64,000 bases of DNA from Sphaerolaimus hirsutus (taxonomy: Eukaryota; Nematoda; Chromadorea; Monhysterida; Sphaerolaimidae), in NCBI GenBank assembly GCA_964036195.1, contig OZ038451.1, positions 9,738,529-9,802,528 of the forward strand. The letters run 5' to 3'. Positions 44 through 58,391 of this stretch are shown here, piece after piece (the stretch's first letter is position 1; each line of letters begins with the position of its first letter). Under the pieces are notes generated by a model. The model ran no database searches and was not told the DNA's origin. It saw nothing but the letters and a program-made list of their open reading frames with translations. The position numbers were made by a program, and so were the translations under genes.

Positions 44-3000
44 CTTTGCAAAGTCGACGGCGACGCAATTGGCGCCGGCGCGCTTGGCCGTGACGGCGAC
101 GGTGTGCAGCGGGGACATGGGCCCGTCGCCCAGGCCGACCAGCACGATGGCGAGCGGCAGCGCGGCCGCCTCGGACAGAGCCCAGTGCAGCGAGTCGCAG
201 TTGAAGTCGACCACCTGGAACATGGAATAGATGGGCGCTTGAAGATACTTGTAGGTAGAATTACTTTTGTAACTATCATTTCAAAAACGTTATTGTGTAA
301 TGCAAATAAGTAGTCTTGGAATGCATGCGTTACCTACAAGTTGCAATTTCGACTAATGGTAGCCCACACACACTGTTGACACACACACTAGTAGTAAACA
401 CCTTCCCGGTCAGGTCCGGCACCCTATTATTGATTTCACTTCGGGAAACTGAAGAGCGAAGCGGGAAAGTTTTCGTTTTCTACTTTCCCACTTGCGAAAC
501 TGGCCCCATATTTCTATTCCAACATGAAAGACCTCATGCCATTGCATCAGCCATATAGGTAATCCACACCAACTCAAGCCAACCTGGGCGTCGGTGAGCA
601 CGATGAGCAAGTGGTAGAGGTCCTCCTGGTCGGTGCCGGCCAGGCTGCACGTGCGTCTGATCACCGGCGCCAGCAGCGTCGGCCCCGAGCCCAGACGGCC
701 GCTCCGGCACGTGTCCAGGTAGCTGGGGGGTTGGTGCATGTGCATATGTGTGTGTGTGTGGTGAGGTGTGTAATTACGCATGTGCATTATATTACTGTAA
801 AAAAATCAATTTTTATGTCAAGTTGTTGCATATAGGTATGTATTTTGTTATCCTTCGTTAAACGTTTGTGACCAGGGTTGGTTTTATAAAAATCATTTGT
901 ATACAAATTGTATAAAAATTGTATAAAAATGTACTTTATTTTTATTTTATTCTTGTTTCATTTTATTTTATTCCAAAATAATAATAAAATAATAAAATGG
1001 ACCATTTTACAAAAATTTTACAGAAATTTTACAAAAAATCAGAATCTTGCATACAAGGTCAGAAAAATGTGACAATTAGACCTAAACATGAAAAACGTGT
1101 GACAAATTTTTACATTACTTTGCAAAAGTTGCATGCAGTAGGTATTGTTAGCTAGTTGCAAGTGTCAAGTTACAATTATCGATAAGAATGGTTGCATTTT
1201 CAGTAGAAGGATTACTGGAGTGTGCTGGGCGCATTTGTAAAACATCATGCAAAGTGTCAATTGTCATGACAAATTTAGTAAAGACTCAATTGGCATCTCA
1301 ACTGTAAAGCAAAGTATAATTGTCATGAAAAATGTCATGCAGAGTGTAAATTGTGTATCTAAACCTTATGTTTTGGTATCCAAACCTTATATTTTGGTAT
1401 CCAAATCTTATGTTTTTGGATCCAAATGTTCACATAATATTTGGTTACAAAAGATAAGATTTGGATACAATTTGCTTTACAGTTTCCACTTTAATTTATA
1501 TTTGTCATGACAATTGACACTTTACTTAACATTTTCATGAAAGTTGACACTTTCCATTCCATTTCATAAGACATTTTGACACTTTACATGGCTTAGGACT
1601 GCCCCAGCTATGCGAATGAACAGGTTGCACTATAAACAACAGAAAAAAATTTTTACAAAAAATATGAATTTTTACAAAAAAAATTTACAAAAATATGAAT
1701 TTGTATACAATTTTACAAAAATTTAACAAACATTCAAATTTTTATACAATTTTTATTTATATATAGAAATTTTCCATTTTTTTAAATATTATTTTATTCT
1801 TCAATTTTCCATTTTATTTTTATTTTATTTTTATTCTTTTCTGAGATTTTGCCAACCCTGTTTGTGACCGGTTACCGTCGGACCGCATGCTATGCATTGA
1901 CGTCATCGTTAATAAAATTAACATTGCTACAAAAAGAGAGAAAACGATTCAGTATAAAAACAATGTCCCGTGTACGCCACGCTGCCTTTTTAAAATTTTT
2001 ATTTTTATTTTGTGAAAGTGCACGCTTAAGTAAGTACCCTGCTCGCGTGTTGTCGACTAAGACTAGGGTTGGCCGATGTTTTTTTAAACGTTTTTTTATT
2101 TTAAAAAACACGTTTTTTAAGAAAAAACATGACATCCGAAATGTTTGTTTTTTAAACATCAGCCGAAATTTTTAGTACTAAGCACTAGGTATTTTGCGAA
2201 GTTTTTGCCCTCTAGCGCAAAATTTCACACACAAATTGATATTGGTGGTTGTTTTCATTGATTTTGTAGCATTTTTAGTACCAAAGCATCCATTTCTATG
2301 TGCTACCATGGGTAAATAAGCCGTCATATGTTGCTGTAGTATATAATATTCAGGTAATGTGCTTCCATGTACCTCCACAGTGAGTAAAATCACTCCCAAA
2401 GTAACAACCTCCTTTTATCACCTTGTTTGATCACTATTCCGTGCCAAACTTCACTTGAAGTCACGAACATTCGACTATAAGGCATTATATGAACATGTTG
2501 ACAAAAATTGACATTTTTGACACAAATCACCACGTATAACGCGATCCCAGGACTCCACAGCCATTATATGGTCATATATAACATCACAGAGTATTGCCAC
2601 TTGTCTGATATACCTATATATGTTGACACAAGGCCATATCTGGGAGCTTTAAAAAAACATGGACTTGAAAAAAACGTTTGTTCCAACCCTAACTAAGACA
2701 TATGTAACTCATTTTGAACGCATGCTTTGCGGTCCACCGAATATATGTGAGATTGCAAAAAATCTGCAAAATACCTATTCAGTACTGCAAATTTTGATAG
2801 CAGCAAATCACACCAGAAGGCAAACGTACCCACTCAAAAGAAAGTTCACATTTTGTTCATAAAGATCATAGCGACGAAATGAAACAACACAAAACGAACC
2901 GCTCAGCCGCCTGAGTAAACGAATCGCATTCATGGATGATAATCTCAGCGTCGTGGCTGTTCGTCTCGAGCACGCTGCGAAAGCAGGACATTTCCAATAG

Positions 3001-6000
3001 ATTCGGCTGCTTGACCATCGAACCACTGGGGGCAGTCCCGCACCCTGTAAGATGCTCTGTAAAATGTCAAATGTCATGCAAAGTGTCAAAACTCATGTGA
3101 AATGCCCTGCAAAATTGCAAACTTTTTGCGATTTTACAGGACATTTTACATGACTTTTGACACTTTGCATGACGTCTGACATTTTACACGCATTTTACAG
3201 GGTCTGGGACTGGCACCTGGTGTCCGTGAAACGAGTGTTGGCTGAGAACGCCATCAGCCTGATAACGCCGTCCGAAGCGCCGTTGAACTGTTCTAGTGCC
3301 GAGCCGAATGTTGTCAGCGCCTGGGGACGTGGCCAGGGACGATGACTTTAAGATTACCGTAACTCCTCGAATAAATCACCCTCAAACCACACTGCCTACT
3401 AATAACTTTCCCCTGTTAGCCAAGTGAGGGAAAAATAACCACCCTAACAGGGACGTATCCAGGATTTTTGAGCGGGGGGGGGGCTGTTTGTTTACGGAGG
3501 CCGGCGAGGGGGGGGGGCTCAGTCCCCCCCCCTCAAATTTGAGCTACATAGTTGCGGAATGGCGCCATGGCGCAGGCGCCATATTAGTAGGCGCCACGCC
3601 ATGGCGCCATTGTCGCTGGCGCCAGCGCCATGGAATGCTGTATATATATGTAAATATACATACAAAACAGCAAAAAGCAGAACATTGAGTGTATTTATAA
3701 CGATTTGTGGCCACCTGGAGCCAATTCGATAATAATAGGTCATGTGTGGTGAAGAATGCACGCTTGCGCGCAAAATTTTTTAAGCTGACGTTGAAAAAGT
3801 CGCATTTTCTGGTCACTTTCTGGTCTCGCGCCGGGAAGAGGGGGGGGGGGCTGCAGCCCCCCCCCCGCCCCCCCTGGATACGGCCCTGCACCCTAATAAC
3901 TCCCATTCTTTTTGACGGGTGGAGATTAGGGTGTCAACTTTCCGTTTTCCGTTTCCGCTTTCCGCAGGCAAATTTTTTTCCGTTTCCGTTGCCGTTTTCC
4001 GGCAAAAAGTTTTTGTTGACACCCTAGTGGAGATGTCACATGTAAAAAACTAAAAAAACAGGTATTCTTTGCAGACGTTATTCTCTATTGATATTCTTCA
4101 TATTGATTTCATTGGTTGAATTGGGTGAATTGGCATTCAGACTTAACCTGGGGCCAGTTCCGCAAGTAGACAAGTTAAGAGTTAAAAGTTAAGAGTTGAG
4201 TTAAAGGTTAAAAGTTGAGTCAAAAGTTGAGTTAAATGTTAAGAGTTGAGTTAAAGGTTAAAAGTTCAGTCAAAAGTTGAGTTAAATGTTAAGAGTTGAG
4301 TTAAAGGTTAAAAGGTGAGTGAAAAGTTGATTTAAAAGACAAATGGGTCATTCGTTGCAGAAGCGCAATACGCTGATCTTCAATCATATTTTGTCCCCGC
4401 ACGGCCATTTTGAAACAATGTTCCGCGATTTTTTTTTAGCGATAATTTTTTTGGATACGTTATTTTCAAATGTCGTGCATACAACATTGGCAGCATGCCA
4501 GCGAACAGCCGTATCAATACCAATTTCACATTTTTATTTTTTTACCATCATTTTCCACTTGTCTCTTAACTCTCAACTCTCAACTCTCAACTCTTAACTC
4601 AACTCTTAACTCAACTTTTAACCTTTAACTCAACTCTTAACATTTAACTCAACTTTTAACTCAACTCTTAAATTTTAACTTTTCTCTTAAACTTTAACTT
4701 TACTCTTAACTCGCCATTTGTCATTTTACTCAACTCTTAACTTTTAACTCTTAACTTGTCCACTTGCGGAACCGGCACCTGATCATGCACTTTACTGAAA
4801 CTTTGGTGAAAAAATACCTCCTATGGGGACTTACCGTATTACCTCGAAATACTCCCATGGGGGTTTCTTATTTCGCCAGCAAAATTTGAGGGGGGGGGGG
4901 GGTTAATTCGAGGGGAGGGGGGATAATCCGAGGTAATACGGTATTCGAGGATTGACGATATTTGGTCAAAACACTTGATACTCAGTCAGCATATTTAAAA
5001 AAGCTGTATATCCAATGCGATTCACAATTGAAACCCTTGACGAAAAAGTCAAATTCATGTAAGTTCATCGGAAACGGAAAAAATTGCTCAACCTTGTAGT
5101 ACGGGTTGTTGGCTCCGCGACTGCCGGCGACGAAATGCAATGAACGAGCTCCGAACGTGCGTCGACCCTGCCATTCGTTACTCGCTGCGAAAAGTGAAAG
5201 GGTAACGTAAATTCTCTAATAATACGACAGTCGTATTATTATTTTCAGCACATTTTTAGGTGTCGTACTATTGGAGATGTCGCATTAATCGAGAGTGTCG
5301 TATTATATTTTTCATCAAATCAACAACGTCACTGTCCACATAACTCAAACGTGAGCATGACATAGTAAAGCAATAAACATGGTAAATAGTGGCGGTTGTG
5401 ATGTGGCTGGTGCTCTTGCGAACTGCCCAGCGACTTTTGTGAACCGACAGCCACCGCGTTGTCCAAAAGCGCCGAATACGCGGCTTCCGCAGATTGCCAC
5501 ATCGTTACGTTGTTTTTCATTTTTTTCTAAGGTGTCGCACTATTGGAGAGTGTCGCGTTATTCTCACACAACGTGCCCAAACCTGTCGCACTATTGGAGA
5601 TGTCGTATTATTGGAACACTGTCGCCGAATTAGAAAATTTACGGTATAACATTGATTTAGGTACATACAGGGGTGGGCATCTTCAGTTACCGCTGGGAAA
5701 ATGCGATAGATTGAGCTACGGTTGAGCTATCAGAATGAAATTTTAACACAATGGAGTAGACTCCATAGGACACCTATTCTGAAGTTTGCAACCCAAACGG
5801 CAACATTTTGGGTGAATTGTGGAACACACGGTTTTTGGTGTAATTTTGTGACTTGGCGTCACCCATAGGATAAATCGAGGGTGGCATTTGAGGGGGGGGG
5901 GGATCATCGGTCGTTGGTGTCGTCCCATTCTGTCGTACATCGGCCGATTTTGATGCCCTTTGAGTATGTTGTGGTCGGGGCTACTACCAAATTCTTTTTT

Positions 6001-8228
6001 TACTCGAATAGTCCCCCAGTCCCGAGATAAGGGGGGTGAAGTCACAAAATTACACTAAAAACTGTGTGTTCCACAACTCCTCCAAACTGTGGCCGTTTGG
6101 GTTGCAAACTTCAGCATAGGTGTCCTATGGAGTCTACTCTATTGTGTTAAAATTTCATTGTGATAGCTCAACTGTAGCTCAAGCTATCGCGTTTTTCCAG
6201 CGGTAACTGAAGATGCCCACCCCTGTACTTGTCAACCTACAACAGGCAAACACTGTGAACCAATGAGTCCACAAAGCAGTTGACGTCGCAAATAAATATC
6301 AACTGGATATCAACTAAATAACACAAAAAAAAATTTGAAGCATCAATCGCACAACAGAAAAAAATGAAAATGGCGACAGTGAAGTGACACGACACAAATT
6401 TAACTAAAATACCGTATTTCCTCGAAATACCCCCTCCCCTCTCGAGACCACTATGAAACAATCACCCCCCCTCGGAATACCCCCCCAGATTGAGTGTAAA
6501 GAGTACGTACATGACAAATACTGCAGTTTGTGTTCTGCGTAGTGCAGAACACACCTTAAAACAATGTCGTAATCACGTTAGAGCAGTGTTTATACCATCT
6601 ACGTTTACTACTATTAGTCTACAGGAGTCTATACATGTCAGTTATTGATGCATTTTTCTACCCCAGTGTACAGCACAAACGACGATTTTGATCTAGGATT
6701 TGAAAAAATTTCTGGCGAAATAATAACCCCCCTCGTTTAACCCCCCCCCCCCTCTCGGGACCACTATGAAACAATCACCCCCGGGGGGGGGGGTTATTTC
6801 GAGGAAATACGGTATGCCCTATCACTCAGGAAACTTGAAATCATACAATCAACCAAAACCCAGTTGACACCAATTTCGATGTCAACTACCAAACTCAGTA
6901 CCCCCAAAAACAACTCACCACTAAAATCGACGGCCACCAAAAACCGGCAGCAAGACCTCAAGCCCGCCTCCGCAAGAGCCGCAGCCACGCCGGCGGGCGA
7001 CTCGAGTTTGTCGGCGAGCGCGGGCAGGCTGAGCGGGGCGGCGGGGCGGCCGGCCAGGGTCATGCCCGCCAGGCGGCGGCCAGAGGATAGTCGGACGGAG
7101 GACATCGAGTAGGTCTGAGATGTTTGGGTGGGTGTTTGAGAGAGGGATAGGGAAACTGTGTGAATGATGTATTTACTCGAATAGTTCCTCTGGGTAACTA
7201 TTTTTTGTCGGACCTTTATGAGTTGGGACTATTCCGCTGGGGGAATTATTATTTCAGCAAAATTTCCAGGCGTGTTTCTATCACACTACATCCACATGTG
7301 GTCCACATCCAAAATGTCCCGTCACCGTTGGTAGTGCACATTTGACTGCATTTTTTCACATCGGATGTGCTTAATCTGTTCTCGATGAATCAAACCAGAC
7401 ACAGCTCCTTTGCTTGCTCTGAATTCATCGACTTTAAAAAACTATATCTGCATTACCCTTTTTCCATCAACTGTGGGGGGGGGGTATTCAAATGGGGTAA
7501 GTATTTTTACCTCACCCGCCACACTGTAGGAGGGAAATATTCAAGGCAGTAATTATTCGAGTGGGGGAATTATTTTTCCTCACTCGTCTCACACGGGGGG
7601 AATATTCAAGTGGGTAACTTTTCAAGTGAGGTTCAATTATTCGAACAAACACGTTATTACACAAGACCCACTCACATCCTGCACGCGATCCCCATGCCCG
7701 TGGTCGAGCTCCAGCTGGGCGTCGGCGCAGGCGGCCTGGTCGGCGGCGGCGCGGGCGCCCGCCGCCGTCAATTGCGACTTGGTGCGCTCGTCGCGCTGCC
7801 ACGCGGCGAACAGCATAGCGCCCACAACCAGCGCGGCCAGGGGGCAGTCCCGGACCCGGTAAAGTGCTATGTAAAGTGTAAAGTGTCAGGTAAAGTGTCA
7901 GTCTTATGTTTATCCCTTTCTGTTTGGCAAAATGACATTTTCTGTCCGTAAAAATACGTTGTCTGTACTCGCGTACTGTCTGCAAGTACTGCTACTGGTA
8001 TTTTTTCCGTGAGGAAACGTAAACGTATTTACGCACTGCTCAAGTATACGGATTTATCGAGTAAACGTAAATAGGTACGTTTCACAACTATCGTAAAATC
8101 AATGAGTTGCCATTTCGCGGGGCATTTTACATGACATTTGACACTTTGCATGACATTTGACACTTTACAGGGCATTTTACAGGGTCCGGGACTGGCACCA
8201 GGTACAGCACCAAGGCCAGGCCCAGCAT
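44..8228 (-). CDS. RGLG/copine-type vWA-domain protein with N-terminal membrane anchor, 8 exons, 3' end beyond window
   Basis: Minus-strand gene read as exons 8199-8228, 7676-7837, 6919-7114, 5093-5184, 3217-3320, 2900-3025, 584-722 and 44-214, continuing left of position 1. All junctions keep the reading frame (phases 0,0,1,0,2,2,0) and all but one have GT..AG. The start is ATG at 8228. Residues about 3-26 are hydrophobic (a signal anchor interrupted by the first intron), followed by a charged Ala-rich stretch. The rest matches the vWA domain of RGLG ubiquitin ligases and copines: FLVAVDFSG then SNEWQGRRTFG, then NPYYKALTTFGSALEQF, then LGSGPTLLAP, LYHLLIVLTDAQ and PLAIVLVGLGDG. The metal-site DxSxS is changed to DFSGSN, as in the DFTxSN form of that family. 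Any RING or other C-terminal domain is out of view. Family assignment is by recognition of these motifs; the role is inferred only. Confidence 0.82.
215..583 (-). other. Intron 7 of the vWA gene
   Basis: Donor CAG|GTTGGC reads from 583 and the acceptor TTCCAG is at 215 on the minus strand; both flanking exons are in phase 0. It contains one end (about 398-425) of the repeat that also bounds the foldback at 28581-29729. No gene is seen in it. Confidence 0.6.
873..1860. mobile_element. hAT-like non-autonomous element, AT-rich
   Basis: The ends CAGGGTTGG / CCAACCCTG are inverted and flanked by a perfect 8-bp duplication, TTTGTGAC (865-872 and 1861-1868). The interior is A/T-rich and contains a further inverted repeat (about 1225-1605) whose arms resemble the TGCCAGTCCC introner family. 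It lies in intron 6 of the vWA gene. No transposase. Confidence 0.85.
2064..2691. mobile_element. hAT-like element with TAGGGTTGG ends
   Basis: Inverted ends TAGGGTTGG / CCAACCCTA are flanked by the perfect 8-bp duplication ACTAAGAC (2056-2063 and 2692-2699). No coding capacity. It sits beside a dispersed repeat (about 1869-2055) that recurs, diverged, near 30620-30840. Confidence 0.85.
3026..3216 (-). mobile_element. Introner: TGCCAGTCCC hairpin element forming all of intron 5 of the vWA gene
   Basis: The 191-bp intron is entirely a palindromic element (3030-3215). On the minus strand the left exon ends ACACCAG, the intron starts GTGCCAGTCC and ends CTGCCCCCAG, and the next exon starts TGG. 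The flanks CCTGG (3216-3220) and ACTGG (3025-3029) are the 5-bp target duplication with one change. Donor GT comes from the last base of the target plus the first base of the element; acceptor AG comes from the second target copy. Splicing restores a continuous vWA frame (phase 2). Arms share GACCCTGTAAAATG and CATGCAAAGTGTCAAA blocks with the copies at 7842-8197 and 56569-56760. Confidence 0.85.
3448..3888. mobile_element. hAT-like element with CAGGGACGTATCCAGG ends
   Basis: Inverted ends CAGGGACGTATCCAGG / CCTGGATACGGCCCTG, with the perfect 8-bp duplication CACCCTAA (3440-3447 and 3889-3896). Interior: G/C homopolymer runs and a self-complementary CATGGCGCC-rich block (about 3560-3630). Related copies are at 14820-15618, 20740-23040 and 62655-63849. 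Confidence 0.9.
3927..4026. mobile_element. 100-bp hAT-like MITE, TAGGGTGTC ends
   Basis: Inverted ends TAGGGTGTCAA / TTGACACCCTA, with the perfect 8-bp duplication GTGGAGAT (3919-3926 and 4027-4034). The interior is TTTCCG-rich simple sequence, shared with 25010-25362 and 25422-27379. Confidence 0.9.
4152..4777. mobile_element. Element of the TGCCAGT superfamily with CCTGG target, GTTAAGAG repeats
   Basis: Ends GGCCAGTTCCGC / GCGGAACCGGCA with flanks CCTGG (4147-4151) and CCTGA (4778-4782). The interior is degenerate tandem GTTAAGAGTTAAAA on the left arm and its complement on the right. The ends and the 5-bp target resemble the introner family. A single end of the same kind appears near 24835 (CCTGG then TGCCAGTTCCGC). 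It lies inside intron 4 of the vWA gene. Confidence 0.65.
4834..4941. mobile_element. CCGTATTACCTCGAAATA palindromic MITE, TA-flanked
   Basis: Starts CCGTATTACCTCGAAATA and ends with CCGAGGTAATACGG, flanked by TA on both sides, as in Tc1/mariner-type insertion. The centre has a G run. This is the most frequent repeat of the window. Confidence 0.75.
5668..6225. mobile_element. Foldback element with about 115-bp inverted arms (CAGGGGTGGGCATC)
   Basis: The left arm CAGGGGTGGGCATCTTCAG is matched in inverse orientation by the right arm ending GATGCCCACCCCTG; similarity extends past the block reading ACTCCATAGGACACC. No clear target duplication and no ORF of note. Confidence 0.7.
6412..6812. mobile_element. 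CCGTATTTCCTCGAAATA palindromic MITE, TA-flanked
   Basis: Ends CCGTATTTCCTCGAAATA / TATTTCGAGGAAATACGG, TA on both flanks. Internal arms carry poly-C and poly-G tracts and a segment (about 6500-6700) shared with the copies at 20285-20714 and 21679-22042. Confidence 0.75.
7115..7675 (-). other. Intron 2 of the vWA gene, mostly a TATTCGAG-type palindromic repeat
   Basis: Donor GAT|GTGAGT at 7675 and acceptor CTCAG at 7115 (minus), both exons phase 0. Positions about 7168-7620 are an imperfect palindrome with TTTACTCGAATAG-type ends, related to the CCGTATT..TCGAA family. No gene. Confidence 0.6.
7838..8198 (-). mobile_element. Introner-family element splitting the membrane anchor of the vWA gene; 3' end is TG, not AG
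   Basis: Element 7842-8197, flanked by perfect CCAGG copies (7837-7841 and 8198-8202 on plus; CCTGG on the coding strand). On the minus strand exon 1 ends TACCTG, followed by GTGCCAGTCCCGG; the other end reads GACTGCCCCCTG then GCCGCG. Removing everything between restores an uninterrupted hydrophobic anchor in phase 0, so the insertion is clear. The duplicated target is CCTGG rather than CCAGG, so the 3' boundary is TG. The nearest upstream AG (plus 7867-7868) would add 29 nt and break the frame. Confidence 0.75.
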
Positions 8229-25421: not shown

Positions 25422-27379
25422 TAGGGTGTCAAATTTCTGTTTCCGTTTTCCGTTTCCGCCTTTCCGCAGGAAAATTTTTTACCTTTCCGTTTTCCGGCAG
25501 CCGAAAATTTTTTACCTTTCCGTTTTCCGTTTTCCGGCAGCTGACAAATTTTTACCTTTCCGTTTTCCGTTTTCCGGCAGCTGAAAATTTTTTACCTTTC
25601 CGTTTCCGTTTTTCCGGCCCATTTTTCCGTTTTCCGGCTGAAAAATTTTTACCTTTCCGTTTCCGTTTTACCAAGCCATTTTTCCATTTTCTGGCTTGAT
25701 TTTCAGTTTTCTGGCATTTTTCCATTGTTTTTCCAATCTGTATTTATCTTCAATTGGCTCATCCCATTGTGTTGTTTTTGTCTCTTGGAGCAGCATTGAC
25801 AACTGGGATTTCAGGGTCAGTGAAACAGGTGCTGTGAACCCAATTGGGTCATAAGCTGACACCAATAATTGTTTCAAGTTTTGTCTGGTTGGTGTTGTGA
25901 TGCTGTCAATTTGCAATTTTGGTGTTGATATTGCCAGCATGTCCGTTCGGTGATTTTATTTAATTCCCATTACTGCGACAATTTTATTCACCTTTGGACT
26001 CCTGTCGTTTTCTGCTATTTCATTCATGACTGATCTGGAGTTTGACAGCCATTCCCTCATGTTCATAGAACATTGGTTAAATAAAGCTTTGACTTTGTAA
26101 TATAGTTCTAAAGCTTCAACTTCATTTGTGACACTCATGATGAAGTTATCGACGTAAATGTTGTTTATTATCATCACCAACTGGTTTTGTTCCCCTTCAT
26201 TTTCTTCATATTCATTCATGTTGTTGATTGTCACATTTAAATGGTATTTTATGACTGCTCCCAAAATTGCTGGGCTGCAGACAAGTCCAAACAGTACTCG
26301 TTTAAAATGAAGTACTATTAAGTTATTTTCAGTTACTGGTTTTGAGGCATCTTTCAGCAAGAAAAATCGTGTGCAGTCTCTAGCTTGGTCATGCAATCCT
26401 ATTTGCAAAAATGCCTTTTCAATATCGGCAATTAATGCTAGATTGCCTGCCCTGAACCTCAGGAGTAGGCCCAGTGCTAATGGTGTTGTAATTGGTCCTC
26501 TAAAAAGGCACTCGTTGAAACTGGGCTTACCTGCCGACCCATTGTACACGATTCTGCATGATGTCGATTTGCCCGGCGTGATTACTGGCTGGTGTGGCAG
26601 GTAATGAATCCCCTTGTTGTCTGTTTTGTCATCACAGATCTCAATTATTCCCTTTTCTAGTTGGTCATCCAAAACTTTCCGGTATTGTTTGAATAAGTTT
26701 GGATCTTTGTTGAATCTTCTTATCAGTGATTTAAACCACACCAAGGCTTCTGCTTTTCCCGTGGGCAGGTCACTGATACTCTATTTATATGGCCAGTCAA
26801 TATAGTATCATTTGTGGTTGTCGTTGAATTTTATGCTATTTATTATCATCTCCTCTGCAATGTTGTCATCAATTGCATAGTGGTCATCAGTGATTCCCAC
26901 TGCTTCTAGACTGTGAAATTGTCATAGTGTTTCCTTTCCTATGGCTACTATGGCTACTTTTTGATGATTTTTTGTTGGTTCAGTTAAGCTTGAACTACAA
27001 GTGAAGTTACAGGCATGATCCATAGTTGCAGGATGTACAGCTACCACAATCAAAGCCAAACAGGCAAACCTGCATGCAGGTTTTGCTTCTGCAAATTTGT
27101 CTATTACCGTGCTAATTTCACTTTATTTTTTTCTGTTTCCGTGAAAATTTTGCTTTCCGTTTTCCGTTTTCCGGCATTTCATTTTTCCGTTTTCCGTTTT
27201 CCGGCCGACAATTTTTTTTTACCTTTCCGTTTTCCGTTTTCCGCTGAGTGAAATTTTTTTACCTTTCCGTTTTCCGTTTTCCGGCAGAAATTTTTTTTTA
27301 CCTTTCCGTTTTCCGTAAAGTGAAAAAATTTTACCTTTCCGTTTTCCGTTTTCCGTAAAAAAATTTTTTTGACACCCTA
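25422..27379. mobile_element. hAT-like element carrying a BEL/Pao RT relic
   Basis: Ends TAGGGTGTCAAATTT / TTTGACACCCTA with the perfect 8-bp duplication GGTACATC (25414-25421 and 27380-27387). Both arms are CCGTTTTCCGTTTTCCGGC minisatellite. The centre (about 25680-27100) is unrelated low-copy sequence holding a retroelement pol fragment. Confidence 0.9.
25668..26744 (-). pseudogene. BEL/Pao-type retrotransposon reverse transcriptase fragment, decayed
   Basis: A 262-residue ORF (26744-25956) has the BEL/Pao RT order: YLPHQPVITP, CRIVYNGSAG, ECLFRGP, LLLRFR, ALIADIEKAFLQIGLH, then FGLVCSPAILGAVIKYHL. The catalytic box reads YVDN instead of YVDD, so the second Asp is lost. A stop follows and the next segment (25940-25668, with ISAYDPIGFTAP-like LVSAYDPIGFTAPVSL) continues the pol downstream region in a separate ORF. 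No gag, protease, integrase or LTRs seen. It lies within the hAT-like element 25422-27379, whose ends are unrelated to it. Confidence 0.8.
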
Positions 27380-56100: not shown

Positions 56101-58391
56101 AAAAAGTTTAGGGGTGCAAAAACTTGAGTTGAGAACACACAAACTGTAACCCCAAAATATTTGCAACCTCCCCACATTTCCAAACCCAACAACATGTAAT
56201 AAATTAAAATAACCCACACAAAATTATCTATAATTTCAATCTCACTTAAAGTAACCTTATCTAATATTTTTGATCAATTTCAGTTCAATATACGTTTTTA
56301 ATCACATTAAAAGTTTTTCATTTTTGCCGCAACTTTTTATCAAATACAAAAATGGCTGATCTGATCAAATGTAATTACTACATGTCTAGAGATGATCTTA
56401 AATTGGAGGAAATTAAAGTTGTGATCGAAAACTGCGACATTTTCGATAAAATAAAAAATACCCAACTAAAAGTGATTATCTATTCTTCAGATCAAAGTAA
56501 TGTTGAAATTTATCAACATATTCAAGCCGAAAATGAGGCATTAAAACTGGCACGTCAAGAATACCGGGTTCAAATCCCAGACCCTGTAAAATGACAAGTG
56601 TCAACTATTATTGAAGATGTCAATCACAATTTTATGATTCTCTATTTTACACATTACGACAATTTACACTTTACATGCGATAAAAATTGACATAAATTTT
56701 TATAGTTGACATCTTCAATAACAGTTGACACTTGTCACTTGACACGGTCTGGGACTATTCCCAGGAAATGCTTGAAAATATAAAAAGGGACAGAGAAATG
56801 CGCAAAAGGGAAATGGAAATGATGGAGGCTACAAAAACTTCTCCAATCTTGTCCTGTGACAAAGCCTACAAGGAAAATGAAAATGGCGTCAGTGATATGG
56901 ATATTCAGATGGAAATTGTTGAAACGCCAGAATGTTCCGAAGAAGTTGTTATTGAGTAAAACGTGAAAAAATTTTTGTTTTTTTTTTATGTGACTATGAT
57001 TTTTTCATATAAATTTTGGTTATTTCGAATAAGCTAACATATTTGAATTTTTTTGCGCATAAATAATAATAATAAAACAATTATGTCAATAAATTGTGAT
57101 TTTTTCCTATTTAAAAACAAATACTTAACACCTGTTCAAATGGGATTGACTTTTTGGGATTGAAGTTTCGGGACCAGGGCATTTTTCGGGATCGGGGTAT
57201 TTTTTTGAGATTGAGATTGAGATTGAGATTTTGAGGTTGGAGTATTTTTCGGGTTTGGGGATCGGGGCATTTTTTTCGGGTTTAGGGATCGGGGCATTTT
57301 TCCGGTATCGGAATCGGGTGTATTTTTCGGGATCGGGATTGGGATCGGGAGTATTTTTTTCGGTATCGGAGGTATTTTTTGGGATCAGGGTTTCGGGATT
57401 GTAGTATTTATTTCGGGATCGGGGGTATTTTTACGGGATAAGGATGTTTTTTCGGGATCGCGATTGGGGTTGGGAGATTGAGACAATAAAAATTGAAATT
57501 TAAGGGGGGTGTTTGAACTGTAGTACAAAAAAGGGGGTAAGTTTAAATAGAAAACTTGTGTAGAGGGGAATGCAAAAAACAAGAGGATAAGTAGAAAAAA
57601 GGAAAACTTACGCAGGTCAGGAAAAAACGAAGCGTACGGAATAAAACTGAAAATTTGAGAAAAATAACGCAGGGAAAACGTATAATAAAAGCGACTGTAT
57701 AAATGTGCGGCCGGGGAAATAGCAAATGGAGATAGCAAAAAATAAGCGGGAAATGAATAGGTTGTTGGTGAAATAAAACAGAAAATGTCAAAAAATGCCG
57801 ATAAGAAAATTAGACGCTCAAAAATGGGCAAGCTTTGTTTTTTTAAACTGACGGATTTTTTTATTTGAATGTGTTAAAAAAAGTATACGCGAAAGGAATA
57901 TTTTATGCACTAAGAGGACACTTTTTATGGTTACAATTAGTGTTTATTATGGGGATGAAAATATACGAACATTAAACACATGTTTTTTAACCGCGCGCGT
58001 GAAAATGCGTGTGACTATGTTAGAAAATAGAAAAACTCTAAAACATCTATTTTAGCCATGGGGACCTCCACCTAGTTAACAACTACTGATGTTACAGGGA
58101 ATTTTACAGGGCCCAGGAATTGCACCAGGTAGGGTTGCGAATTTCAAAAATTTCGGTTCCGGTTCACGGTTCTCGGTTCCAAAATTTGCTTGGAACCGGG
58201 AACCGCGGTTCGGTCCGATTCGGGTCGGTTCGGGGTCCCAACCCTAGTACCAGGTACCTGAAGCATCCCCAAAAAGTAACAATCCAACCCACCTTCGATA
58301 TCAACTGGTCATGATCGGCCAAATTTGCCCTGCAATGAACGCAGCTATATGTCCTGCCGCCGGCCGGCAAATACGCTTGAAACGTTTTCAT
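31650..58391 (-). CDS. Yippee-like protein (YPEL1-4 type), complete, 3 exons, Polinton in intron 1
   Basis: Minus-strand exons 58293-58391, 32698-32850 and 31650-31748 give 33+51+32 codons plus stop, 116 residues; vertebrate YPEL1-4 are about 118-121. All introns are phase 0 with GT..AG (AAG|GTGGGT, TAT|GTCGGT; acceptors CCCTCAG and TCACAG). The Yippee zinc-binding fold is intact: CVHC at residues 17-20, then [20 protein letters not shown] with CECC and TTLGWKY, then [19 protein letters not shown] to the C terminus. The family is nuclear/centrosomal in animals; exact function here is unknown. Intron 1 is 25.4 kb because of the Polinton at 34166-58087. Nothing in the exons suggests loss of function. 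Start is the only ATG before the conserved KTFQAYLP. Confidence 0.95.
32067..32440. mobile_element. CCGTATTACCTCGAA MITE in YPEL intron 2 (empty-site copy)
   Basis: The left end CCGTATTACCTCGAAG follows TA; the right end is diverged (TTTCGAGGTAATATTTACGG). Colinear with 23079-24722 without its nested insertion. Confidence 0.7.
32482..32571. mobile_element. 90-bp hairpin MITE, TAGTGATGGAAAAAGCGCC ends
   Basis: Ends TAGTGATGGAAAAAGCGCC / GGCGCTTTTCCATCACTA; flanks CCCTTCAC and CCCTTTAC (8 bp, one change). Sits in YPEL intron 2, about 125 bp from exon 2. Confidence 0.8.
33458..33868. mobile_element. GGGATC-minisatellite element (TAGGGTTCAAACGGG family)
   Basis: The left end AGGGTCCAAACGGGATCCCG and the right end CGTTTGAACCCT are inverted; the inside is (CCCGAT)n with AAAGGTCAAT and AAATCTCAAA spacers. 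A unique block (33500-33650) also occurs at 63858-64000. Confidence 0.7.
34040..34165. mobile_element. Left part of an introner-family MITE split by the Polinton
   Basis: It reads CTCTGTAGAATGCGCTGTAA near the left end and CATGACATTTGATGTT at the break. After the Polinton the sequence resumes at 58094 with ACAGGGAATTTTACAGGGC and ends CACCAGG, as other copies do (GACATTTGACACTTTACAGGGC near 8156). The left border (TCAGG at 34035-34039) is less certain because the adjoining AATATCAGGGATTACTCC is duplicated. Confidence 0.75.
34160..34165. repeat. Polinton target-site duplication, left copy
   Basis: GATGTT, identical to 58088-58093; 6 bp is the standard Polinton/Maverick duplication. Confidence 0.95.
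34166..34269 (+). repeat. Polinton left terminal inverted repeat
   Basis: 104 bp from AGTAGTTGTTAACTAGG to GCGCGCGGTTAAAAAA; matches the inverse of 57983-58087 with a few substitutions and one 1-bp indel. Confidence 0.95.
34242..34430. repeat. Subterminal direct repeat, 142-bp period
   Basis: CATGCATTTTCACGCGCGCGGTTAAA with TTATTTACCCACATAC at 34242 recurs at 34384; the interval includes TGTAACACAGATTTTAC, the precursor of the 78-bp units that follow. Confidence 0.7.
34451..34616. repeat. 78-bp tandem repeat upstream of the PolB promoter
   Basis: Units start TGTATCACAGATTTTGCAAG at 34451 and 34529, with a partial third at 34607; they contain AACACAACTGTCTTGTCGAC. The repeats end about 30 bp before the TATA box, so they may act as binding sites for replication or transcription factors (inference). 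Confidence 0.8.
34647..34654 (+). promoter_or_regulatory. TATA box of the PolB gene
   Basis: GGTATATAAG lies 50 bp before the ATG at 34697. The same GTATATAA core precedes the core-protein and major-capsid genes. Confidence 0.7.
34697..39232 (+). CDS. polB: Protein-primed family B DNA polymerase of the Polinton
   Basis: 1511 residues. The ATG at 34697 is chosen because it follows the TATA box; the upstream in-frame ATG at 34586 lies before it. The N-terminal third is acidic, then come two Cys clusters (about 412-440 [17 protein letters not shown] and about 509-555 CKICKKK..HMFEC) that could bind zinc. The 3'-5' exonuclease has FYDTET (D574, E576), AHNLSFD (N664, D668) and YIRND (D792). The polymerase has motif [10 protein letters not shown] (D1045), motif [16 protein letters not shown] (from K1247) and motif [10 protein letters not shown] (D1349, D1351), so all catalytic residues are present. 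It would replicate the linear element from its ends with a protein primer. The ATPase gene follows after 1 bp. Confidence 0.95.
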   Translation: MTKQPEDNIDQTTTQQTTPDPVEMDTTPMEYELVDSEAEQDDEIQIHPEEDIFDETLVENLVDSGVNDIDIKQHYNFLSKNVFDIEIEYPEWKGLFEISEPYQEENGKFYVKYFVYDVKFVNDLADKVSDPILFLEYVLTKCLKSVFVEYLNTDNKRKMLAGVKIMSKAFDKGYILTKMTDVENLSISAILNRVELIFQSEALDEHSLLNGFFVHVTTVEKDNVIACGFSNYKCLASTKQRIKKFSRSILEPPEIPGLEEKCLPICIYIGWNHLLTKMVKNRKFYRHAMKKSRKGKYNNMEKDTWNLINVATSHGYLGKGDISVDTKPLIMALNTLKPKIAKILFGTRIWRFEDGGLELVYKFPELNKNVLWIDLLHTDQNHTVLIKSIAAVSNSHTVTDCCSKFLYSVASTCKCEHGVCPMCYSNTMCKIDRSVKIIECSDCNRKFYSKECYKNHFKNIYSTKKNVMTKMQIDENFNESNDSAYFEEFKLRDPQWGDNDLTICQAVMFCKICKKKVILGSGHQFCGYTKCYYCQKYIPIEKSFNDHMFECFFQKPIPYEIKNPGKEFQLIFYDTETFTQSCEDPIINNVNFENKLENLSKRKLHKTYAVYCTRRCNLCFFSNEACNQCKLGEKFFYGLQAIEQFYFFLMDYGYNTNATAIAHNLSFDLCEILALLIKNGLMPKLCLSNGKRIFYMVANKCLSFLCSMKFFPMALASLSEAFKCKTVKGYHPHHFITKDNLYNKYDCLPEIRYYDSINMKKSTENDFLEWYGKHKFDPFDVKEHTLYYIRNDVAILEEAFMKFSQEIYSMFQIIPHLNAKSLSSLANFIWRCKFLDCNLILHTPINNTYNFGDNQSASALKSILALAEYYNNKYIRYSRTEGGEFTVECFDRQLGKNRKFKIDCVVYKDIEKQQIELFREINGCFWHGCPNCYPSRYRIPPQMHFSHKNNHEETMRRKAMIEQTTGIKLESWYSCDIARLRESNLEFAQIYNKSKIKEPLNIRRAYYGGQTSCFRTFCSTHPDATLFDENFPFHYSDDFKIGYIDICSMYASVMKKASFPVGVPRVLNGEQLTNIQNYYGKSLPFAAGVLQVDILAPKGCLLPCLPVKVGKLSVFATCFNCAFIYASGANEFPKPDGSYRCKCTDKQRKIFGTYSVNCLNMALERGYKILRCYEGLIYNHMCQWSQANPHTNLFSEFIDTLYAKKLAASKQNFKTKEEKEKFCKDFMDKESYDISAENFNVNPTKAKICKLLMNSCYGQLGLNANKSQFLFIKDQKKFFDIVFNAENEILELFTMSPNIMRVKLQRVDEFAHNSRNSCLILALYITSHARAALQRLLEMFEYDRLLYCDTDSAIYCTQKGQSEPQHTPNDLGGLKDEISPDLFISEFCCIAPKMYINTYRNKNDPNIGYTDVKAKGVRITNKNFLNLQNTEFKKQLIAFFYGTSPAEKLPDPIYTENLQFRNINSITGVTTGVTTKQVSLHLRKRYHYINNHKTFSIPWGYAEHLMPHEMN
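39234..39968 (+). CDS. A32/FtsK-HerA-type genome packaging ATPase
   Basis: 244 residues. Walker [10 protein letters not shown] near residue 24 and Walker [13 protein letters not shown] near residue 103. This is the Polinton/adintovirus packaging ATPase that would drive DNA into the capsid. Starts 1 bp after the PolB stop and ends 2 bp before the next ATG, which suggests a shared transcript. Reading frame intact and of normal length. Confidence 0.93.
   Translation: MDQKFSYDDIKFADWRQSYLIVGPTQAGKTHFCINFLRAALDGNLGLDPPVEKVIICSGSTQKNQQSMYPKLVDEFGTDKVRVLERNRVVDLDKIEDDPTPSIIVFDDLQLNLPPLYVSRLFSNVVSHAKNLIVLFMVQDPFLSHQMKILRRMCSYLVLFKYPMSNVVVNLANSWFGRGEQRTKFLQAYQDAITTQHYGYLTVCFLTAINPMFQARSNLFNENDLDEMIIYDLTNAIESDIYNL
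39971..40351 (+). CDS. Small basic protein of unknown function
   Basis: 126 residues, Lys/Arg-rich, mostly helical in appearance, with no Cys-pair pattern and no membrane segment. I do not recognise a family. It sits between the ATPase and the next unknown gene and overlaps the latter by 26 bp in another frame; such tight packing supports real coding. A DNA-binding or virion role is possible but not shown. Confidence 0.75.
   Translation: MENKVIKNRRVPRVLKYMDALKKMRQFSSSEGLKTYINKVSTRVLATFMDCVYNCSINDSYRKTLTSFQKRRIDYYKPLSDKLLSIRGPLGTRIRKNLSQHVSIKYIESILQPIISKFDGGSKRDE
40326..41321 (+). CDS. Unknown Polinton protein with disordered Pro/Ser/Arg-rich centre
   Basis: 331 residues from ATG 40326. The N-terminal 70 residues look helical. 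Residues about 90-200 are low-complexity, with a [11 protein letters not shown] stretch (possible kinase or SH3-type site) and basic runs KRRS that could act as nuclear signals. The C-terminal 100 residues are again ordered-looking, with [11 protein letters not shown] at the end. Overlaps the preceding gene and, by 35 bp, the integrase gene. Family not recognised. Confidence 0.75.
   Translation: MEAPRGTNRVNVRDFKWVLKKFVSEENDKQVLENVLNRIIHSKRLSANEKLHLLNAVRNKISTVLNSKYRVDMFPNEHSAVNNSSQQTFRLPTPPPSPTREDEMRVTPKRESPDEKFSSNYSPNELFGIDTGNLTGDHQSRTILRKRRSQHATSPRGKVTKRRSNVAKQIDFDLETDENVTPLQQRRETGLNSPIVTGNPTFEMEYEDSPKMRKMLKSVDRQLQRRKVKVDSMNRIFSPSTNKPIEGSDYSAMVRYLASIKANEGQIKGAKGEVPIGIQQMSELISKQNFGKTRKDTQAYINLILSQIGRGALWTRRKVVNGHIDWLENDW
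41287..42343 (+). pseudogene. int: Retrovirus-like (RVE) integrase with one frameshift in the catalytic core
   Basis: The N-terminal part (41287-41676) has the Polinton integrase start, with [19 protein letters not shown] and the first catalytic Asp in LSIDIAFF. The second part, open from 41630 to 42343, holds [10 protein letters not shown], the second Asp in ITCDMAKEF and the Glu in [15 protein letters not shown], then a C-terminal PKFKINDIV domain. The frames differ by +1, and a single extra T in the T run at 41634-41640 explains the shift. A 46-bp GTAAGT..CAG intron (41615-41660) is also conceivable but would delete a core strand of the RNase H fold. The enzyme is therefore probably dead in this copy. 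Confidence 0.85.
42360..42686 (+). CDS. Small single-pass membrane protein
   Basis: 108 residues. A polar N-terminal 40, then one hydrophobic segment (about 48-66, [18 protein letters not shown]), then a short tail. Follows the integrase by 16 bp and precedes the penton gene by 7 bp. Small membrane proteins of unknown role are common in Polintons; I cannot assign it further. Confidence 0.75.
   Translation: MYTNTKKPDSSINYKDDKKIEPLIMEAPRTQTRDKTCNVNKKFILQSSITTLQLVTIVILLVFISINYPPKKIHSSIREASNLLLEFFKLLNIPQNTKLYRMVFNSTW
42694..43821 (+). CDS. Minor capsid protein (penton-like, single jelly roll)
   Basis: 375 residues, intact. The N terminus has the Polinton penton pattern: [19 protein letters not shown], then [10 protein letters not shown], a strand-rich start where the protein 'measures' a target strand. 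The C terminus ends in basic LRKRPILH. It would form the capsid vertices with the major capsid protein. Assignment rests on the N-terminal pattern and gene order. Confidence 0.85.
   Translation: MVYCSELYLDIVLRGDNLIFDFPNNLKFNPNESWELGLHSIYINSVDKSVNFFNSSLKNYFVVFDAYGHFYFARVNFDSILHKAGQFEFLSNVPTKDEILKCIEESIKEGSVKCDSLSDLNQKCGQFWMEVLQEIGTYQRDFNIRYRRDIVNKQYIPPQLTIATKPHLAFSHVDPLHPDKGLVKIQKEMIPLIRSYNWIKPISEGADIENPKFESVLQYERKNNHIIFENTFPQVKRDDNCSTIIFSKPLRELLGLKSPFIGTTESETTPSVVNVQDSSGNFLGSQMLYVTCIASLENTIFGSNKVSIASIPLSNDSVIENINYEAKNIKYFPIGSILTDKLQFDFLYESASRVNLLPNARIFLSLVLRKRPILH
43834..43840 (+). promoter_or_regulatory. TATA box of the core-protein gene
   Basis: TGGTATATAAACA, 42 bp before the ATG at 43876, in the gap after the penton stop. 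Confidence 0.7.
43876..44388 (+). pseudogene. Basic virion core protein (adenovirus pVII/pX-like) with in-frame TGA
   Basis: The first 121 codons have two repeats around FYSD.I.KSS.. and VYST.IEKST and become basic (KKRKTRKRK). A TGA at 44239-44241 stops the frame. The same frame then continues for 48 codons, extremely rich in Arg, Lys and Gly (for example [11 protein letters not shown]), to TGA 44386-44388. Such a tail is typical of DNA-condensing core peptides and unlikely to persist by chance. Either a recent nonsense mutation or readthrough/recoding explains it; mutation is simpler. Own TATA box upstream. Confidence 0.8.
44412..44420 (+). promoter_or_regulatory. TATA box of the major capsid gene
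   Basis: GTATATAAAT, 61 bp before the ATG at 44473, in the 84-bp gap after the core gene. Confidence 0.7.
44473..45891 (+). CDS. Major capsid protein (hexon-like, double jelly roll)
   Basis: 472 residues, intact. The start region with [20 protein letters not shown] is the usual Polinton/adintovirus major capsid signature, and the C terminus has [19 protein letters not shown]. Trimers of this fold build an icosahedral shell. Usual length for the family is about 450-550. The protease gene follows after 2 bp, and the shared late promoter at 44412 probably drives both. Confidence 0.92.
   Translation: MALSRGGNITAVAPETLLKSKPDIDSDFIIPEEILYHRAPGVYSAFVQQNLLPIPLSTQHQPDATSWTFELNTSQYYLDLSNIFIRVQFQVVQEDGTNIPAQWGDTNESCVSWVAPIPGIAQTMWRTVKLFSRDQLILEIIDTYAYLAELKNTVLSNIDDHIKVKEIQGWFKENYDNLESETPTEAFVKRARQISGSKMCNCFSPLLLDMLTTKCLWPANFPIKFQLQRHSDSFMLECFKKSIPEFVNQAKKYKFKFHKVEMFGRFLQPDGETAIGVEETIVEKPLKMHFLNCRVVRSQIPPNASESSTTAIVSGKLPSFVIIQFLDNNRYLSNDITQQKFVFQPNNIERASVIFGSNRHPANPFEFETGGGDFGYEIAYAELCRCLKKNFGIEEVIWFRHFKTGKFLLAFDPSPCSVNQEQSNLHSIGSCALDLRFHTPVGPNGLTVLVYMFTLASVHLHADRTILSNANY
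45894..46421 (+). CDS. Adenain-type cysteine protease (capsid maturation)
   Basis: 175 residues from ATG 45894. Catalytic order as in adenovirus protease: His in YGHFVSLF (about 49), Asp in YIFDSLGE (about 65), Gln in SVQPQ (about 99) and Cys in KCGLYAVIF (about 109). All four positions are present. It would cleave capsid precursors during maturation. Last gene of the compact viral block; an AATAAA follows at 46430. Confidence 0.92.
   Translation: MEIDDISTILKSDGLMKWKTKCIKLENAFPIGVGCGVVCFLQYKNLSYGHFVSLFRINQDCIYIFDSLGETNLHDDTIIFLLKACAPTCSTIMINSVQPQSKNSSKCGLYAVIFLKLALMITVDNNYAPLTSMKDAIKIIEHCNKGNIGMLFRMLFPYTPLNRLSTNAIRLIRST
46430..46435 (+). terminator. Poly(A) signal of the late capsid transcript
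   Basis: AATAAA 9 bp after the protease stop; end of the plus-strand viral block. Confidence 0.6.
46640..46900. repeat. Two 132-bp direct repeats with GCGCGCGAGCCAGCGCACGC
   Basis: CCTCCTCGCAATCGCGCGCG at 46651 recurs at 46783; units include CATGCAAAGTGTCAATAGTT and a G/C-rich ACTGCAACCCCCCTGGGAA tail repeated to about 47020. Part of the non-coding stretch 46436-48961 inside the Polinton. Confidence 0.75.
47120..47174. repeat. (CGCA)n microsatellite
   Basis: About 13 CGCA units with one CATG interruption. Flanked left by the palindrome GGGTTACCCGCAGGGTAACCC (near 47085) and right by a G/C-rich block to 47340. Confidence 0.9.
47340..48961. other. Gene-free stretch of decayed MITEs inside the Polinton
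   Basis: Repeated TGTCAACTGAATGTCA and CACACGGTAGATGACATC arms (47640-48120) belong to the CACACACTAGTTGACAT palindromic family. 48480-48800 has GAGTATACGTACTTTTCGAG repeats. No coding sequence seen; the stop of the minus-strand gene is at 48962. Confidence 0.5.
48962..54860 (-). CDS. Cargo gene: spliced type I membrane protein with mucin-like stalk, at least 9 exons
   Basis: Exons on minus: 54783-54860, 53997-54110, 52756-52818, 52257-52272, 52150-52189, 51584-52082, 50298-50420, 49996-50051, 49490-49729, 48962-49100. Every junction is GT..AG and every phase fits, giving about 455 codons. Order: two short ectodomain pieces with few Cys; a 16-nt microexon; a 166-residue Thr/Ser/Pro mucin-like stalk of STVTSTLP repeats; a membrane exon ([24 protein letters not shown]); then a basic, Arg/Pro-rich cytoplasmic tail ending RRHGSAS repeats and EPNAHLLY. 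No signal peptide seen, so one or more 5' exons are missing; the ATG at 54860 may not be the start. Family not recognised. It lies wholly between the Polinton TIRs and opposite to the viral genes. Confidence 0.7.
49108..49488 (-). mobile_element. hAT-like introner (GGGATC-minisatellite family) forming the last intron of the cargo gene
   Basis: Ends TAGGGTTC / GAACCCTA, flanks CCTGCGGG (49100-49107) and CCTGCCAG (49489-49496), 6 of 8 bases equal. On the minus strand the exon ends CTGGCAG, the intron begins GTAGGGTTCAG and ends GAACCCTACCCGCAG, then the exon continues with G. The donor GT is the last base of the duplication plus the first of the element; the acceptor AG lies in the other duplication copy. 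Intron 49101-49489. The inside is CCCGAT/CCCAGTCCC minisatellite with AATGTCAAT spacers. Confidence 0.8.
50686..51263. mobile_element. 578-bp perfect-looking foldback, CACACACGTTAGTTG ends
   Basis: Left half CACACGTTAGTTGAAATGG, then AATGTCAACTGGCAACGAC and CCCATTGTGACCCCTTTG; the right half is its inverse with few differences. Hairpin turn near 50975. Lies in an intron of the cargo gene. Confidence 0.8.
51790..52070 (-). repeat. 24-bp minisatellite coding the mucin stalk
   Basis: About 11 units of CAGGGTACTGGTCACTGTGCTGGG (plus strand). The coding frame gives STVTSTLP; a second minus frame gives QHSDQYPA and is also open. Phases of the neighbouring exons select the Thr/Ser frame. Confidence 0.85.
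52402..52712. mobile_element. GGGATC-minisatellite element, both ends visible
   Basis: Left GGGTTCAAACGGGATTGAC, right GGGATCCCGTCTGAACCC. Preceded by an (AC)n microsatellite (52328-52360). In an intron of the cargo gene. Fragments of the same family are at 53870-53985 and 54180-54340. Confidence 0.7.
53189..53632. mobile_element. CCGTATTACCTCAAAATA palindromic MITE
   Basis: Left CCGTATTACCTCAAAATACC; right TATTTTGAGATAATATGG, diverged. The centre is a near-perfect palindrome around CTACACATAGACTAGTTTGTGTAG (about 53399-53423). In an intron of the cargo gene. Confidence 0.7.
54861..56351. other. Intergenic part of the Polinton cargo region
   Basis: Contains a GGGCCCAAACACGCTAGTTA palindromic MITE (55229-55482) and an inverted repeat with GAGAACACACAAACTGTAACC arms (about 55790-56190). 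A signal-peptide exon for the minus-strand gene was looked for here and not found. Confidence 0.5.
56352..56959 (+). CDS. Cargo gene: small acidic coiled-coil protein, two exons
   Basis: Exons 56352-56567 (72 codons) and 56765-56959 (64 codons plus stop), joined in phase 0 across an introner. 136 residues: an N-terminal part starting [20 protein letters not shown], then a charged heptad-like helix ([13 protein letters not shown] continued by [20 protein letters not shown]), and an acidic tail ending EVVIE. Without splicing the frame stops 9 codons after the exon border. Family unknown. An AATAAA at 57071 follows. Donor CGG|GTTCAA is weak, so the splice model is less certain than for the vWA gene. 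Confidence 0.6.
56569..56760 (+). mobile_element. Introner-family element in the coiled-coil gene
   Basis: Arms TTCAAATCCCAGACCCTG / GGTCTGGGACTATTC and matching GACAAGTGTCAACTATTATT inverse blocks; flanks CCGGG (56564-56568) and CCAGG (56761-56765). Intron 56568-56764 runs GTTCAAATCC..CTATTCCCAG, with donor and acceptor at the same element positions as in intron 3026-3216. Confidence 0.75.
57071..57076 (+). terminator. Poly(A) signal of the coiled-coil gene
   Basis: AATAAA in an AATAATAATAATAAAA run, 112 bp after the stop. Confidence 0.5.
57127..57480. mobile_element. GGGATC-minisatellite element, left end only
   Basis: Starts GTTCAAATGGGATTGACTTT and continues as GGGATCGGGGTATTTTTC units; no matching right end seen. 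Confidence 0.6.
57600..57720 (-). promoter_or_regulatory. Possible promoter and 5' leader exon of the minus-strand cargo gene
   Basis: On minus: CATTTATACAGTCGC, then TTTTCAGTTTTATTCC (initiator-like), then CTGACCTGC|GTAAGT as a donor. Close to the right TIR and in the right direction for the cargo gene. Weak evidence. Confidence 0.3.
57983..58087 (-). repeat. Polinton right terminal inverted repeat
   Basis: 105 bp, inverse of 34166-34269; ends CCTAGTTAACAACTACT immediately before GATGTT. Confidence 0.95.
58088..58093. repeat. Polinton target-site duplication, right copy
   Basis: GATGTT, identical to 34160-34165. Confidence 0.95.
58130..58246. mobile_element. 117-bp hAT-like MITE, TAGGGTTGCG ends
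   Basis: TAGGGTTG / CCAACCCTA ends; flanks GCACCAGG (58122-58129) and GTACCAGG (58247-58254), 7 of 8 equal. It inserted at the CCAGG end of the MITE that holds the Polinton. CGGTTCCGGTTC-rich. Confidence 0.8.

Follow-up and report, generated by a model that had tools for sequence, protein, structure and literature searches.

A PIF/Harbinger-like hairpin transposon family that very probably forms introns in genes of Sphaerolaimus hirsutus

Introners have been found in 175 of 3,325 genomes and in only two animal groups, and some of those derived from DNA transposons carry one splice site themselves and take the other from the target site duplication (Gozashti et al. 2022, PMC9860276). The miniature element (MITE) family described here resembles them in its terminal inverted repeats (TIRs), its target site duplications (TSDs), its many genic copies and its one borrowed splice site. 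In the nearest type shown in that paper (its Fig. 2C), the element likewise carries the 5' site and the duplication supplies the 3' site; there, however, the TSDs are 4 bp long and TIRs are lacking. Going by the published description, our family is set apart from those introners by a Harbinger-like CWG target, an animal host and many coding copies with would-be TG or GG ends. NuwaI elements (PHIS), which occur only in animals, duplicate CWG and usually have TIRs starting with GGG (PMC4482050). The CWG duplication, the animal host and a GGG at the right end are shared by our family, whereas its left end is GTG, and gene-splitting intron copies do not appear in the consulted parts of the NuwaI description. 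Zebrafish Harbinger3_DR has the palindromic target AAACACCWGGTCTTT (PMC3016246), which has the core CACCWGGT in common with the target of our family, while the outer target bases differ, being GTGG-like and GC-rich in the latter. Finally, 95% of the introns in tunicate genomes are reported to escape the GT/AG rule (PMC13326754). The present case is also an animal genome with putative introns departing from GT/AG, but here the introns of the gene that hosts the first element are otherwise GT-AG in our gene model, and the MITE family would depart at the 3' end only. Among the titles and abstract openings covered by our literature search, we found no paper on a Harbinger-type CWG introner.

The analysed window is a stretch of 64,000 nt (G000:C2:9738529-9802528) of the S. 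hirsutus assembly, which was searched as a whole (348 Mb in 762 contigs); the features of the window are collected in Table 1. The vWA gene that had been predicted on the minus strand was borne out: the assembled protein, used as query, matched the Pfam family Copine and the structures of RGLG1, RGLG2 and RGLG5, which identifies an RGLG/copine-type vWA protein. A doubt over the vWA identity, raised by empty Pfam and PDB searches with single exons, was dropped in view of the Copine match. Homologues occur in Macrostomum, gastropods, sea urchin and ticks. The gene model was made by hand and comprises seven exons in the window, the first of which carries the start together with a membrane helix; in this model, the remaining introns are GT-AG. 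Elsewhere in the window, by eye only, a run of long open frames on the plus strand (34562-46421) has the look of a Maverick/Polinton, with polymerase-, ATPase-, integrase-, protease- and capsid-like frames, and a minus-strand frame (25956-26780) resembles a retrotransposon reverse transcriptase.

Table 1. Elements and exons of the copine/RGLG-type gene in the window
Feature	Position in window	Strand	Flanks or basis
Element 1, 188-bp hairpin MITE	3029..3216	-	CAG 3217-3219 and CAG 3026-3028
51 nt after element 1	2975..3025	-	exon in the original prediction; most likely remainder of an older intron; last base of acceptor TGTCCTGCTTTCGCAG at 2975
Element 2, 358-bp sister copy in exon 1	7841..8198	-	CTG 8199-8201 and CTG 7838-7840
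Element 3, diverged relative	56568..56761	+	CGG left, CAG right
Element 4, 628-bp MITE, different interior, similar ends	4151..4778	+	CTG either side; within the exon 3-exon 4 intron
Exon 1, first part (ATG, membrane helix start)	8199..8228	-	gene model, homologue alignment
Exon 1, second part	7676..7837	-	gene model, homologue alignment
Exon 2	6919..7114	-	gene model
Exon 3	5093..5184	-	gene model
Exon 4	3217..3320	-	gene model, Copine and RGLG matches
Exon 5, preferred model	2900..2974	-	gene model, RGLG match, homologue alignment
Exon 6	584..722	-	gene model
Exon 7	below about 210, may run off window	-	gene model

Read on the minus strand, element 1 and its surroundings are CACCAG/GTGCCAGTCCC...GGGACTGCCCC/CAG/TGG. 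The inner arms of the element (64 nt) are 89% complementary and the outer arms (37 nt) 76%, and the 242-nt stretch 2975-3216 has a folding energy of -136.9 kcal/mol compared to -59.6 +/- 4.5 for 200 shuffles (z -17). This confirmed the terminal inverted repeats and the hairpin that had been proposed for the site. The proposal of a frame intact across the gap also held, as the frame is open on either side of the element, and the sister copies were recovered in the window as well as genome-wide. The proposed 5-bp duplication of CCAGG failed, as the right copy at element 1 is CCAGT and the duplication of the family is a 3-bp C-N-G.

The perfect 26-base left end occurred 796 times in the 348 Mb (reversed-pattern control: 0), and 19-base left ends were counted genome-wide 1009 times with CAG and 842 times with CTG; in viral contigs, the element pattern gave 0 matches. 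For the C1 set, the sites of the 26-base search on contig C1 were taken by position; 90 of the 91 sites were read, 85 had both ends, and 79 were left after near-duplicates had been dropped. The GT of the sampled copies is fixed by the search pattern itself. Pairs of copies with nearly the same flanks (L012/L013, L038/L039, L053/L054, L082/L083, L103/L104, L112/L113 and L116/L118) are local duplications or assembly duplicates; most of them lie close together on one contig, several on opposite strands. Equal CNG triplets bordered 53 of the 79 distinct elements (CAG 30, CTG 20, CGG 2, CCG 1), and over 42 equal-CNG copies the flank consensus was CACC-W-GGTG. What is duplicated at the target is a 3-bp C-N-G, mostly CWG, inside the palindrome CACCWGGTG. 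A 5-bp CCNGG duplication was rejected across the family too: in the same 42 copies, G stood 3' of the right copy in 29 and C 5' of the left copy in 29, and since each was found in 29 only, the outer C and G reflect target preference and the element's own end bases. A sample of the top 30 copies was left out of all TSD ratios because its query flanks had biased it to CAG (CAG/CAG in 46/95 pooled versus 23/66 in the C1 set).

The ends of the elements are near-palindromic, with GGG at the right end and GTG at the left. The matches listed for the genome (150 candidates scored) include 163 to the transposase family PF13359, none of which was linked to the MITE family; the one pair examined, a possible autonomous partner near C1:27.12 Mb, was rejected, as the transposase and the MITE there are separate and unrelated. 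Most of the listed PF13359 matches score nearly equally and are interrupted at four TGA codons, which may represent a single intron of an autonomous family that has spread recently. Among 46 standard-length MITE copies, the median pairwise difference was 10.6%, with 10-13% for L015, L050, L058 and L077, and the copies are therefore not recent breaks.

According to the original prediction, the intron at element 1 is exactly the element. We compared this 191-nt intron, whose acceptor is CAG/TGG, with a 242-nt intron that uses the same donor and the acceptor TGTCCTGCTTTCGCAG/CGTG, 51 nt further on with the phase unchanged. The longer intron scored higher against Copine (66.7 versus 56.4 bits) and matched RGLG2 in one piece (88.7), while the shorter one matched in two (78.7). 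With the shorter intron, 13 columns past the junction were empty in 13 of 14 homologues and 10 in the remaining one. With the longer intron, D-T-S-V-L-E aligned ungapped with D-E-A-V-F-P-like stretches of 10 homologues, except for 3 residues in P0001, while further on this alignment still contains about 7 extra residues. From a domain score of 58.0, the preferred acceptor led to 68.1, another in-phase acceptor to 64.5, and the deletion of 15-17 other nearby residues to 62.6-64.3. Against the more distant acceptor speak the gain in score from other deletions nearby, the extra residues that persist, and the open frame of its 51 nt, a length divisible by three. In our judgement, which is not a computed value, the intron ends probably do not coincide with element 1 and its duplication, and the intron is most likely 51 nt longer. 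The residues following the junction of the 191-nt intron are absent in the homologues and the Copine score falls, so the predicted identity of intron and element is probably wrong for this copy.

The competing reading, in which the element plus CAG became a 191-nt intron inside an exon and the next 17 residues are real and lineage-specific, would require no mutation, given CAG on either side; it yields GT...AG ends with a frame open over the gap, and exact CAG cases exist elsewhere in the family (L003, L008, L014, L022 and L081). We consider it unlikely, although not far-fetched: the extra residues are missing from the homologues, both the Copine and the RGLG scores drop, and the acceptor at 3025 scored -3.0 compared to 2.5 for the one at 2974 (by position weight matrix). 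Furthermore, the base after the right CAG of element 1 is T, found in 1 of 42 family sites. On the preferred longer intron, element 1 would have landed on the CAG/GT donor of a pre-existing intron of about 52 nt, in a sequence that we take to have read CACCAG/GTGG and that matches the family target CACCWGGTG. It would have brought a new donor and lengthened the older intron to 242 nt (3216..2975), and the subsequent loss of one G on its right would have inactivated the former donor.

Element 2 interrupts exon 1 where the codons for YL are followed by those for AA. The homologues align across this site ungapped (P0001 YLAA, P0002 YMAA, P0003 YIAA, P0005 YVIA), and exact removal of the element restores the membrane helix; the 3' end of its would-be intron is TG. 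Judged by this alignment, element 2 is the better candidate in the window for an exact intron copy that splits a conserved exon. Element 4, which combines similar ends and a CTG duplication with a different interior, appears to belong to a second MITE family. It sits within the intron that separates exon 3 from exon 4, so relatives of the family need not be introns themselves.

We next turn to the position of the family relative to coding sequence. When the flanks were joined and scored by codon usage, 23 of 62 C1 copies appeared coding-like; among control CWG sites, taken 250-800 bp away at the same loci, 21 of 496 did (odds ratio 13, p 7e-13). Copies falling in introns no more often than expected would have spoken against the prediction; taken as exon-interrupting positions, these counts point the other way. 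Training of the codon model used the copine exons and 13 loci from the first sample; L004, the sole C1 copy used in the training, was excluded from the 62. The model is rough and mixes up strands, and as strand calls from codon scores alone proved unreliable in GC-rich exons, orientation was taken from domain matches instead. The other 39 of the 62 copies were not scored coding, hence the family is not limited to exons.

Upon removal of the element and one CNG, conserved domains ran across the junction in ten different genes, in all ten cases in sense orientation. Five of 10 sense frames in one batch gave such a match (L003 ZP-N, L008 trypsin, L014 laminin EGF, L015 nicotinic receptor ligand-binding domain, L022 SLC12), as did four of 8 in another (L037 Oscp1, L058 E1_dh, L077 Helicase_C, L080 AMP-binding), and L081 added a homeodomain. 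In the first of these batches, the RRM match of L030 stops at the junction, the TPR repeats of L005 remain under the cut-offs, and the sense frames of L016, L017 and L024 had no domain match. Another batch of 10 sense frames gave 0 matches above the curated cut-off, and a further one gave 1 in 10 (LDL receptor class A, confined to the left side); at least half of the sense frames in the batches of 10, 8, 10 and 10 matched no family. In the first C1 set, 87 sense frames yielded 5 families, which we assigned by sequence to L045, L058, L059, L077 and L081. Antisense frames gave 0 domain matches in 74, 0 in 10 and 0 in 2; for L001-L030, the antisense scan covered L002. With element and one CNG removed, the best solved relatives were ungapped at the junction for BCKDHA, the nicotinic acetylcholine receptor alpha-7, ATRX and Abd-B. 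For the joined flanks of L081, the best solved match of the homeodomain was Drosophila Abdominal-B; this Abd-B-like homeobox (G000:C1:12716402-12718452) is split after about the twelfth conserved residue, with CAG on either side. Excision of the element together with one duplicate would thus regain the conserved reading frame exactly, and the sense orientation in genes fits splicing.

The 3' ends of these would-be introns were a surprise. Among the ten domain cases, L015, L037 and L058 are flanked on either side by CTG and L077 by CGG, and L080 has CTG on the left and CAG on the right. Four of the ten do not allow a strict GT-AG intron with exact ends, and their intron would end in TG or GG. 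Canonical sites within the element, part of which would then be kept, were tried by hand from the end sequences and rejected, as the frame is shifted. At the right CNG, coding-like copies had AG in 16/29 and TG in 9/29, and the other copies AG in 26/50 and TG in 14/50; because the AG share is similar in both, a strict need for AG is disfavoured. Genome-wide, counted over CAG and CTG, CAG made up 1190 of 1996 right copies compared to 1009 of 1851 left copies (p 0.0014). Unequal pairs in the C1 set were CTG/CAG in 7 cases and CAG/CTG in 1 (one-sided p 0.035), several of them not coding-looking. This suggests a trace of selection toward AG on the right side.

Taken together, the copies studied here very probably belong to a PIF/Harbinger-like, NuwaI-type MITE family that forms introns, with element 1 placed on an older donor and element 2 as the better exact copy. 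The prediction of transposon-made introns thus stands for the family, through its enrichment in coding sequence, its sense orientation and the restored proteins, and falls in three details, namely the 5-bp duplication, the origin of the GT and, probably, the exactness of the copy it named. Likewise, of the splice sites thought to arise from the duplication, the 3' end is indeed the duplicated CNG, while the GT donor is the element's own. In the proposed mechanism, a non-autonomous hairpin transposon inserts into CACCWGGTG and duplicates the central CWG. The pre-mRNA would then be spliced from the GT with which the element starts on its left to the close of the CNG on its right, which is AG if the middle base is A and otherwise TG or GG. 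The hairpin may bring the intron ends together and so make a poor 3' end tolerable. As a proposal, the orientation bias would arise because the reversed element begins with GG and offers no donor there. From copies that are exact, sense, in frame and old, we infer that they are spliced.

The main alternative to GT-dependent splicing, in our view fairly improbable, is a relaxed or different removal step, possibly non-spliceosomal, that recognises the hairpin in the RNA and for which the 3' dinucleotide would be irrelevant. It would account for proteins being restored with CAG, CTG and CGG alike and for the lack of AG enrichment in coding-like copies, and the copies do fold well, the median share of paired bases being 84% over 89 folded copies versus 55% over 92 flank controls. 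Nevertheless, the orientation is sense-only and the right side is shifted to AG across the genome, which suggests that GT and AG matter. That the copies just disrupt genes or lie in dead ones, and are never removed, would fit CTG copies ending without AG; it is very improbable, as the copies are not young (median difference 10.6%) and yet the conserved frames on either side are open and alignable, and the orientation is one-sided. DNA excision in body cells in the manner of ciliate IESs, leaving one CNG, would restore frames regardless of the middle base but should ignore the gene strand, and with all ten domain cases in sense and no match among 74 antisense frames, it is the least credible of these explanations.

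Returning to the splicing of a transposon-made intron, the broader reading is that of an animal introner family, probably of well over a thousand copies, whose target CACCWGGTG is a proto-splice site and whose introns run from GT to NG (AG, TG or GG) with their ends joined by the hairpin. We hold this tentatively, as a possibility somewhat short of an even chance. If true, a new sense insertion could be removed immediately, whichever base stands in the middle of its duplicated CNG, selection would gradually convert TG ends to AG, and the birth and maturing of introns would be visible in one genome. The origin of introns is a long-standing question, and transposon-made introns in animals are few. 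The family adds numerous cases of insertion into known genes, among them an Abd-B-type homeobox, ATRX and BCKDHA, and suggests a simple rule that ties the target of a transposase to splice sites, while its set of non-AG 3' ends provides material on the AG requirement and on selection toward AG.
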